Origin: Microcaldota archaeon
GTDB lineage: Archaea; Micrarchaeota; Micrarchaeia; Norongarragalinales; UBA8480
Reading direction: 5' to 3'
DNA: 12,799 nt
Assembly: GCA_023247085.1 (NCBI GenBank)
Contig: JAHFHC010000022.1
Location: forward strand, 1 to 12,799
A program made the position numbers and the translations under genes. The notes below the pieces were generated by a model that ran no database searches, was not told the DNA's origin, and saw only the letters and a program-made list of their open reading frames with translations. Below, piece after piece: positions 1-10,643 of the stretch; the first letter of the stretch is position 1, and every line of letters begins with the position of its first letter.

Positions 1-372
1 AAAATATGCGTACCATTCACAACACCAGTAGCCAACATAGCCGCATTAACAGACGCAACCAAACCAACCTGAGACAAATTAACAGAATTATTCAAAATAT
101 GCGTACCATTCACAACACCAGTAGCCAACATAGCCGCATTAACAGACGCAACCAAACCAACCTGAGACAAATTAACAGAATTATTCAAAATATGCGTACC
201 ATTCACAACACCAGTAGCCAACATAGCCGCATTAACAGACGCAACCAAACCAACCTGAGACAAATTAACAGAATTATTCAAAATATGCGTACCATTCACA
301 ACACCAATACCAATCAAAGTTGCATTAATAGATCCATACAAACCAACCTGAGAAAAGTTAATAGAATTATTC
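1..372. repeat. 93-bp tandem repeat: three identical copies plus one diverged copy
   Basis: Units start at 1, 94, 187 and 280. The first three (1-93, 94-186, 187-279) are identical base for base. The fourth (280-372) keeps the length and frame but differs at about 15 positions. The unit is 31 codons of the minus-strand secreted protein, so the array lies inside a gene. It may continue beyond the left edge. Exact identity next to a diverged copy points to recent expansion or gene conversion. Confidence 0.95.
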
Positions 373-2704: not shown

Positions 2705-3856
2705 ATGAAGCATTTCTTTACATCAGAGTCAGTGACCGAAGGGCATCCGGATAAAATTTGTGATCAAATTTCAGATGCGATTCTTGATGCCATTTTGGAA
2801 AAAGATAAGGAAGGAAGGGTAGCAGTTGAGACGCTTACAACAACTGGAAGCGTCATGGTTGCGGGCGAAGTTACTACTAATAGCTATGTTGACATTCAGG
2901 GGGTTGTACGTAAAACTTTGAAAGATATTGGGTACACTAACCCCGAATTTGGGCTAGATTACTCAGATTGTGGAGTTTGGACGGCTATTCATGAGCAAAG
3001 CCAGAACATTGCAGTAGGCGTTGACGAAGCGAAGCAAAAAGAACAAGGAGCCGGCGACCAAGGGTTAATGTTTGGTTTTGCTTGCAACGAAACTCCAGAG
3101 CTTATGCCTTTGCCAATTATGTTAGCCCATGGCTTAACTATGCGACTTTCAGAAGTTAGGAAGAAGAAGATTTTACCTTGGGTGAGGCCAGATGGTAAAT
3201 CACAAGTCACAGTTGAGTACGAAGATGGTAAGCCGAAACGCGTAGACGCAATTGTAATTGCAGTTCACCATAGCCCCGAGAATACTCGCGAACAAATTAT
3301 CCGCGACATTAAGGAACACGTGATTAAACCAATCTGCGGCAAATGGATGGATGAAAAAACACACATATATGTAAACGAAACTGGCGTATTCATAGTCGGT
3401 GGACCTGAAGCAGATACAGGCGTAACTGGCCGCAAAATCATTGTTGATACTTATGGCGGATACGCACGCCACGGTGGAGGCGCATTCAGTGGAAAAGACC
3501 CGTCGAAAGTTGACCGTTCCGCAGCTTATGCAGCACGCTATATTGCAAAGAATATAGTTGCAGCAGGGTTAGCGGATAAATGTGAAGTGCAGTTGTCTTA
3601 TTCAATTGGGGTAGCACAACCAGTTTCAATTTACGTTAACACATTTGGTACAGCTAAAATTCCAGAAGAGAAGATAAGTGAATTGTGCTTGAAGCACTTT
3701 CCAGTTAAGCCAAAACAAATCATCGAGCACTTAAAGTTAAAGAGGCCCATCTACAAGAAAACAGCGGCTTATGGTCACTTTGGTAGAAATGACCCTGACT
3801 TTACATGGGAAAAAACTGATAAAGCTGAAGTGCTGAAGAAAGACGCAGGGCTTTAA
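2705..3856 (+). CDS. metK: S-adenosylmethionine synthetase (bacterial/eukaryal-type MAT)
   Basis: 383 residues, the usual length for bacterial MetK. It makes S-adenosylmethionine from methionine and ATP in the cytoplasm. Visible hallmarks are [13 protein letters not shown] (residues 13-25, with His14, Asp16 and Lys17 of the ATP/Mg site), [12 protein letters not shown] (115-126, signature 1), GGGAFSGKD (257-265, signature 2) and the C-terminal [14 protein letters not shown] segment. All three MetK domains appear intact. Most archaea instead use a distinct archaeal MAT (COG1812), so this bacterial-type enzyme suggests old transfer or a lineage-specific replacement. The start is set by GGTGA nine bases upstream. 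It is divergent from the HTH-CBS regulator and convergent with the asparaginase homologue. Confidence 0.98.
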
Positions 3857-4378: not shown

Positions 4379-4493
4379 AAATATACAAACTAAAAGTGGC
4401 TTTTGAACATAAAAGCATTTGGTAAACTCGCCTTACGCACTTAATTTAAACTCTATTCCCCCAAATAAATTCGAAAATTACAAGATTAGCATT

Positions 4494-4568
4494 GGGCTCG
4501 TAGCTTAGCCTGGTTGGAGCACTCGACTGATAATCGAGCGGTCGTGAGTTCAAATCTCACCGGGCCCA
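4494..4568 (+). tRNA. tRNA-Ile (GAU)
   Basis: Full cloverleaf without intron. Acceptor stem GGGCTCG (4494-4500) pairs with CGGGCCC (4561-4567), with one G-U. The D-arm is 4503-4520. The anticodon stem CTCGA/TCGAG encloses CTGATAA, with GAT at 4529-4531. The T-arm GTGAG-TTCAAAT-CTCAC is 4544-4560, and the discriminator is A (4568). CCA is not encoded. The 5' GGGCTCGTAGC and D-loop sequence are of archaeal tRNA-Ile type. A TATA-like AAATAAATT lies about 28 bases upstream. Confidence 0.97.
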
Positions 4569-4594
4569 TAAAAATTCACAATAGCTAAGACATA

Positions 4595-9344: not shown

Positions 9345-9395
9345 AACTTGTGAAGAAACTTATAAACCCGTACAGCTCTAACTTTTTTTACACTT

Positions 9396-9503
9396 GCTTC
9401 GATCGTCTAGCTGGTCAAAAATCGTTTAATTTTTAAACTATTTTCCGTAAAAGGACGCAGCCCTCTCAAGGCTGCAACTCGGGTTCAAATCCCGATCGAA
9501 GCG
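9396..9503 (+). tRNA. tRNA-Glu (CUC) with a ~34-base insertion in the D-loop
   Basis: Acceptor GCTTCGA (9396-9402) pairs perfectly with TCGAAGC (9496-9502). D-stem GTCT (9405-9408) pairs with GGAC (9453-9456). Anticodon stem GCAGCC/GGCTGC (9457-9462, 9470-9475) encloses CTCTCAA, with CTC at 9465-9467. T-arm TCGGG-TTCAAAT-CCCGA is 9479-9495. CCA is not encoded. The D-loop is 44 bases (9409-9452), against about 8-11 normally. Removing about 34 bases would give a normal loop such as AGCTGGTCAA. The extra segment contains GTTTAA-TTT-TTAAAC (9424-9438), a perfect hairpin. A TATA-like CTTATAAACC lies about 34 bases upstream. An intron at an unusual site is the best guess, but I found no canonical bulge-helix-bulge. 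Confidence 0.85.
9417..9452 (+). other. Inserted segment in tRNA-Glu D-loop, candidate noncanonical intron
   Basis: This AT-rich stretch interrupts an otherwise normal tRNA-Glu. The exact ends are ambiguous because A-runs flank it (9417-9421 and 9449-9452). It folds as GG-bulge(UCA)-AAAAU-(C/U)-GUUUAA-UUU-UUAAAC-(C/U)-AUUUU-CC (9413-9446), a long hairpin with a three-base bulge. The second bulge expected of a splicing motif is missing. Confidence 0.55.
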
Positions 9504-9533: not shown

Positions 9534-9551
9534 AGCTTGTTAATTTTGTTT

Positions 9552-10643
9552 ATGCCATTTAAGCGTATTTGGGCTATTCATCCGTCAGTAAAAGAACTTT
9601 GGGCTAACCCTAGACTAATTCCTAAACTACAAGTTTTCTTTCAACACTTAATGACAAACCTCCCTGAAGATAAGCATTACACTAGAAGCGCGATTTTAAA
9701 CAAAGCGGCGTCAGTAGAGTTTAAAGTTTTTGGGAAAGCGTTGGATAATTTGTTAGGGCCGAATACAAAGCAATTTTCTAAAGATAGATTAAAGGAGATA
9801 TCAACCAGGTTACAAGGCGTACAAATAGAAGTACAACACGTTAATGAAGCTAAATCAAATTATGGAATAGACTTTACATCCCCTGTCGGAGTGAGGGTAT
9901 TAAAAGAAACCGAAAGGGAAGTTGAACTTCAAATTGAGCCAGTTAACCTTACAATGGTTAATCGACAAAAACTCAGCCAAGGCGATTTATACTTACCGCA
10001 TGAAACGGATCCAGAAACAGCCTATGTTGCTACTCCTTTGAAAGCGGACGGCAAACCGCCAGTTTATTCGCTAGTGCGTTTAGTGCCGTTTCGTGACCCA
10101 GATACAAATGCGCTTCATTACTTTGTACAAAATTTACAGCCTAAGAAAAGGGAAAGCCAAGTTCCAAATCAAGTGCAAAAAACTTATAGATTTTTAGATA
10201 AATGGAGTTTAATGGCTGCGCTTAACTACGCACGTACAAGTGGAGCTGCAAAGGTATTCATTTCAAGAGAATACGCTTCACAAATTCACGGTTTGCTTGG
10301 CGATCATCATACTAGACACGTTCTACAGCAAATTCGTAAAAAACACACGCGTCAAGTAGTTAGAAACGCTTGGGCAGATTATAGCAAGGGGCAAATTGAC
10401 AAAGCAGAATTCGTAAAAAGAGCAAAAGATGCCGGGCTAACGTTACCTAAGTATTTAACTGACAAAGAAGCGGAGCGATTATACGAAGAATCACCGCGCG
10501 CGGTTGGATTTAGGCCATTTGCTTCGAACATAAGCGTAAAAGAGAAAAATAGACGAACTACAATTGTTCGACCATTAGTTTATCCGACGTTAGAAGATCA
10601 CCCGTTATCTTTCTTAGTGCATAGACCGTTTAGACAAGCTTAA
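9552..10643 (+). CDS. Unrecognised cytoplasmic protein of 363 residues
   Basis: The frame opens at a TTG (9537), but the ATG at 9552 fits the promoter spacing and gives 363 residues. I do not recognise the family with confidence. There is no signal peptide and no membrane helix; the chain is basic. Residues 170-245 (VYSLVRLVPFRDP, HYFVQNLQPKKRE, then RFLDKWSLMAALNYARTSGAAKVFIS) form a strand-strand-helix-strand pattern. Residues 255-310 are a Lys/Arg-rich helical region, and 309-323 read RLYEESPRAVGFRPF. This order loosely recalls phage- and DPANN-encoded proteins with an EIQSD-helix-strand module followed by Y-x-x-x-P-x-x-x-G-F, but the EIQSD motif itself is absent (VQNLQ instead). A nucleic-acid or protein-modifying role would be guesswork. 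It appears to be a single-gene transcript. Confidence 0.75.
   Translation: MPFKRIWAIHPSVKELWANPRLIPKLQVFFQHLMTNLPEDKHYTRSAILNKAASVEFKVFGKALDNLLGPNTKQFSKDRLKEISTRLQGVQIEVQHVNEAKSNYGIDFTSPVGVRVLKETEREVELQIEPVNLTMVNRQKLSQGDLYLPHETDPETAYVATPLKADGKPPVYSLVRLVPFRDPDTNALHYFVQNLQPKKRESQVPNQVQKTYRFLDKWSLMAALNYARTSGAAKVFISREYASQIHGLLGDHHTRHVLQQIRKKHTRQVVRNAWADYSKGQIDKAEFVKRAKDAGLTLPKYLTDKEAERLYEESPRAVGFRPFASNISVKEKNRRTTIVRPLVYPTLEDHPLSFLVHRPFRQA

Follow-up and report, generated by a model that had tools for sequence, protein, structure and literature searches.

Introduction

Introns at position 20/21 and at other non-canonical positions of archaeal tRNAs have been reviewed, as has the finding that similar introns were inserted in numerous tRNAs of Thermoproteales (PMC4090602). 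ARMAN-1 and ARMAN-2 belong to the archaea with multiple-intron tRNAs (PMC4033280), and the epsilon2-type splicing endonuclease cleaves relaxed motifs (PMC6379350, PMC4033280). In this enzyme, Y236, H251, and K282 serve catalysis, R275 and W384 recognize the bulge, and Y160–K161 lie in an ARMAN-specific loop (PMC12397907), the residues of which are credited with the cleavage of relaxed motifs.

The tRNA-Glu(CUC) gene described here lies in a window of 12,799 nucleotides, the whole stretch of DNA that was analyzed. It shares with the 20/21 introns spliced at relaxed bulge–helix–bulge (BHB) motifs the D-loop position, the short size, the bulge–helix architecture, and a host with a broad-specificity endonuclease (PMC4090602). 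The groups that the literature names as rich in such introns are mainly Crenarchaeota and Nanoarchaeota, whereas the host in this study is a tiny, uncultivated member of the Candidatus Micrarchaeota outside the acidophilic ARMAN lineages; the likeness is one of architecture. With ARMAN-1 and -2, the host has in common the phylum, the epsilon2 type of EndA including the ASL residues Y160/K161, and relaxed motifs at varied tRNA positions (PMC4033280, PMC12397907). However, its genome is only distantly related to theirs, and in a pattern search for 32- to 62-nt inserts the tRNA-Glu intron was confined to one family of the class. The split tRNA-Glu of Nanoarchaeum equitans has the same amino acid specificity and a relaxed BHB at the junction, but is assembled in trans from two genes, while the gene studied here is continuous and its intron lies in cis in the D-loop. 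A split tRNA of this type was ruled out, since both exons are found in one 108-nt gene, and the Nanoarchaeum parallel drawn in an earlier note on this DNA is not needed. The D-loop intron is of a well-known archaeal kind; what is new is one more place and one more lineage. Taken alone it matters little, because the endonuclease of the phylum is already known to accept relaxed motifs. A limited literature search retrieved no paper on tRNA introns across Micrarchaeota; this exact intron may have been listed earlier.

The tRNA-Glu(CUC) gene and its probable intron

Positions 9396–9503 (+ strand) of the window matched the Rfam tRNA family RF00005 over the full length of the model (positions 1–71; cmscan, 49.6 bits, E-value 2.5e-8), with a D-loop insert sized 38 nt in the alignment. 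The anticodon CTC at 9465–9467 assigns the gene to tRNA-Glu(CUC). The acceptor stem (9396–9402/9496–9502, GCTTCGA/TCGAAGC) is perfectly paired, the D-stem GTCT/GGAC (9405–9408/9453–9456) is intact with one U·G pair, the T arm is present, the discriminator is G, and CCA is not encoded. The D-loop spans 44 nt (9409–9452) and contains a 6-bp hairpin GTTTAA/TTAAAC (9424–9429/9433–9438) with flanking A-runs. The analysis of the sequence hence bears out the description in the earlier note, which comprised a tRNA-Glu(CUC) with an insertion of about 34 bases in the D-loop, intact stems including a perfect acceptor stem, a 44-base D-loop, and the hairpin between A-runs. ARAGORN with default settings did not call this tRNA in the window. 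Its only call was another one, tRNA-Ile(GAT) at 4493–4569, which is a reminder that a default-setting tRNA finder can miss genes with D-loop introns.

A TATA-box-like sequence, CTTATAAA, is located 30 nt upstream of the tRNA (9359–9366, + strand) and, judged from its sequence, may act as the promoter element. A similar element, GTGAAGAAACTTATAAA, also precedes the tRNA-Glu orthologs in the nearest relative of the window genome (G002) and in G001. The neighboring protein-coding gene covers 9537–10643.

The boundaries of the intron were derived from homologous tRNA-Glu genes of related genomes, a comparison that the earlier note had suggested. Where tRNA-Glu genes of the same order are uninterrupted, the insertion site has the sequence GTCTAGNNNGGTCAAGGAY. 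The window gene has GGTC–insert–AAGGAC where the intronless relatives have GGTC/AAGGAY exactly at the junction (slash), so that removal of 34 nt restores the usual sequence. The 5' exon (9396–9416, + strand) comprises the 5' strands of the acceptor and the D-stem and the D-loop through GGTC, corresponding to GTCTAGNNNGGTC/AAGGAY in intronless relatives. The 34-nt intron (9417–9450, + strand), inside which all differences from G002 fall, is followed by the 3' exon (9451–9503, + strand) with the 3' strand of the D-stem, the anticodon arm, the T arm, the 3' strand of the acceptor stem, and the discriminator G. Because A's flank the junction, the placements 9417–9450, 9418–9451, and 9419–9452 are indistinguishable by sequence, and the splice sites are ambiguous by 1–2 nt. 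If the cut strictly followed the 3-bp helix described below, the intron would measure 33 nt (9417–9449). Before GG, the exon is one base shorter than in most relatives; a 33-nt intron, with one more A kept, would therefore restore the usual length of the D-loop. In silico removal of the intron yields a canonical tRNA like the intronless homologs, and the resulting 74-mer folds as a cloverleaf. The most fitting interpretation of the insert is a non-canonical archaeal tRNA intron of the ordinary kind, located at a 20/21-type position.

Predicted fold of the precursor

The 108-nt transcript was folded without constraints. In the minimum-energy (MFE) structure, the D-stem is retained and the exon sequence UGG (9412–9414, + strand) pairs with CCG of the intron (9445–9447, + strand), forming a central helix H with pair probabilities of 0.28–0.49 at 37°C. 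The intron folds into a hairpin h' (9418–9444, + strand; AAAAT-C-GTTTAA/TTAAAC-T-ATTTT, loop TTT; pair probabilities mostly 0.6–0.97), in which GTTTAA/TTAAAC continues below a C·U mismatch as AAAAT/ATTTT (9418–9422/9440–9444). The 3-nt bulge UCA (9415–9417, + strand) separates AAAAT/ATTTT from the exon–intron pairing. The splicing endonuclease generally cuts between the second and the third nucleotide of a bulge, which places the predicted 5' splice site between 9416 and 9417. On the 3' side, an internal loop with AGC opposite UAAAA is found between the D-stem and H, without a clean bulge.

A strict BHB, with two clean 3-nt bulges and a 4-bp helix, fails narrowly: H has only 3 bp, one of them U·G, the fourth pair would be C·U, and the 3' side is the internal loop AGC/UAAAA. 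With helix H (UGG/CCG) adjoining a bulge of 3 nt (UCA) and h' (AAAAU/AUUUU), the motif in the modeled precursor is a relaxed BHB of the HBh' type; the 3' internal loop and the short H make it relaxed rather than strict. When the intron was dinucleotide-shuffled 2000 times, this arrangement appeared in 3 of the MFE structures (0.15%). Since shuffling reproduces it so seldom and a second, independently assembled species shares the insert, the architecture is not attributed to chance. The earlier note had fitted no canonical BHB, which holds for the strict form, but it missed the extension of the hairpin below the C·U mismatch and, across the bulge, into UGG/CCG, and with it the relaxed HBh' motif in the MFE structure; a relaxed splicing motif had been among its options, and this is the one that the unconstrained, rarely reproduced fold favors.

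The window genome and G002 differ at 4 of the 108 positions, all of them in the intron (Fisher's exact test, p = 0.009), and the exons are identical at 74 of 74 bases. One change affects the C·U mismatch, one the loop of the hairpin, and two the intron strand of H, where CCG is replaced by CTA in G002 and both changes preserve the pairing with exon UGG. In the modeled structure, the four differences would be neutral, which is supportive but not proof, coming from one close sequence pair. The HBh' fold of G002 is 1.3 kcal/mol less favorable than the MFE structure, which substitutes a neighboring 2-bp pairing for H. In G005, a fold with H lies 0.8 kcal/mol above the MFE, and in G001 H is present in the MFE structure.

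Splicing machinery and proposed processing

The host encodes a broad-specificity splicing endonuclease of the epsilon2 type and the ligase RtcB. The endonuclease of G002 (387 amino acids), the nearest named relatives of which are from Candidatus Micrarchaeota, aligns over residues 11–387 with the epsilon2 enzyme of ARMAN-2 (4fz2, 9w2k; E-value 6e-128) and conserves Y236, H251, K282, R275, and W384 as well as the equivalents of the loop residues Y160–K161. The copy of the window genome (locus L075, contig C26, 1393–2561) has the same residues, its sole interruption being a short stretch of undetermined bases; the gene is intact in G002. A tRNA_int_endo match was obtained in 36 out of 40 relatives.

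Very probably, the locus represents a functional single-copy tRNA-Glu(CUC) gene with a 33- to 34-nt D-loop intron of the 20/21 type, which carries a relaxed HBh' motif and is cut out by the epsilon2 endonuclease, the exons being joined by RtcB. In the precursor, exon UGG, which includes G18–G19, would pair with CCG at the 3' end of the intron. The UCA bulge and the intron hairpin would complete the HBh' motif, with the internal loop AGC/UAAAA as the 3' site. The epsilon2-type endonuclease would then cut near 9416/9417 and 9450/9451, and RtcB would presumably ligate the exons. The expected product is a tRNA of 74 nt whose D-loop is normal (AGCTGGTCAA), the spliced reading being predicted as GGTCAAGGAC or GGTCAAAGGAC. 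According to this model, removal of the intron almost certainly falls to the tRNA-splicing enzyme of broad specificity that the archaeon itself encodes. The junction, the HBh' fold, and the endonuclease support the earlier proposal that the tRNA-Glu(CUC) is functional and contains an archaeal intron outside position 37/38. The hint that its removal is puzzling finds no support, as HBh' is the unconstrained MFE structure and the genome group encodes an endonuclease that cuts such motifs.

A functional tRNA that keeps the insertion as part of a giant 44-nt D-loop is conceivable in so far as the insertion forms a hairpin of its own while the remaining cloverleaf is intact. However, the predicted fold pairs the insertion with G18–G19, which should stay free for the contact between D-loop and T-loop, and the insert varies from 34 to 92 nt across the family next to unchanged exon sequence. 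Furthermore, the host encodes both the splicing endonuclease and RtcB, and insertions also occur in the anticodon loop and the T-loop of other tRNAs from this genome, all of which makes retention highly unlikely. It is equally improbable that the 34 nt are either never removed, the structured 44-nt D-loop being used as such, or removed by a route that bypasses the splicing endonuclease; nothing was found in favor of the different removal mechanism or the retained giant D-loop that the earlier note had listed.

That the gene is a pseudogene or a decaying copy might be suspected from an insertion in a conserved loop and from its being missed by the default tRNA finder. A decaying gene would hardly match G002 at all exon bases while the intron changes, and the TATA-like box upstream is conserved. 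An uninterrupted second tRNA-Glu(CUC), which according to the earlier note would speak for a pseudogene, was not present among the tRNAs collected by search from the window genome (estimated completeness of the assembly 92%), the interrupted gene being the only CUC tRNA-Glu found. We consider decay extremely unlikely. The window stems from a draft archaeal assembly (892,562 bases, 36 contigs), which could raise the suspicion of an assembly or sequencing error. The separately assembled contig of G002 matches across the whole tRNA region and contains the same insert with four point differences, contradicting the sequencing error in the insertion that the earlier note had taken into account and reducing the probability of an artifact to almost nil.

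Distribution in the family

A pattern search of 301 genomes of the class detected inserts of 32–62 nt at the tRNA-Glu site in the window genome, G002, G003, and G005, all from family f1. The search for longer inserts in the order (29 genomes) added G001, which belongs to the same genus as the window genome. These searches used exact patterns, which would miss diverged genes, and covered other insert lengths in the order only. The inserts measure 34 nt in the window genome and in G002, 43 nt in G003, 50 nt in G005, and 92 nt in G001. The intron of G002 is near-identical to that of the window genome; those at the same site in G001, G003, and G005 have other sequences. This pattern indicates that tRNA-Glu genes of family f1 are recurrently interrupted at the D-loop site.

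The isoacceptor concerned varies. In G003, the UUC gene carries the insert, plus an additional one in the T-loop, and the CUC gene is continuous; G005 shows the reverse, with the insert in the CUC gene and an uninterrupted UUC gene. The window genome has an anticodon-loop intron in tRNA-Glu(UUC) instead (contig C36, 8121–8252). The ends of the D-loop introns are alike (AAGTAAC…GCCGA) in the congeners G003 (contig C50, L082, UUC) and G005 (contig C18, L083, CUC), and it looks as if the intron had moved between isoacceptors or the anticodon had switched. For G003, a 4-bp helix UCGG/CCGA can be written, with which the usual cut rule would remove A21; exact cut sites are therefore not claimed. With introns of 34, 34, 43, 50, and 92 nt in both tRNA-Glu isoacceptors of one family, this set could be used to test the site choice of epsilon2 enzymes in relaxed motifs.

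Other interrupted tRNAs and further features of the window

Only 11 tRNAs of the window genome scored above the Rfam cut-off, in part because many of its tRNAs are interrupted. Interruptions in the anticodon region were found in tRNA-Tyr (contig C27, 25446) and in tRNAs on contigs C10 (2841) and C35 (93015). About nine further tRNAs have introns in or near the T-loop, three of them together with a second intron, and the tRNA-Glu(CUC) of the window is one of the milder cases in this genome. The T-loop introns of these approximately nine tRNAs (loci L032, L033, L036, L037, L038, L040, L041, L042, and L043 on contigs C9, C16, C29, C36, C21, C25, C8, C35, and C5) resemble each other, with hairpins AAGCCTTTTTCTTT...AAAGAAAAAGGCTT and often an end ...CGAAAATCC. 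They look like one intron family that has spread among tRNAs, as reported for Thermoproteales, and may merit closer attention.

Two other features of the window were noted. The gene at 2705–3856 encodes an S-adenosylmethionine synthetase, which looks like a bacterial-type enzyme and not an archaeal one, possibly as a result of gene transfer. At the edge of the window (1–372), four 93-bp tandem repeats (95% matches) form an open frame with a repeated unit of 31 amino acids.
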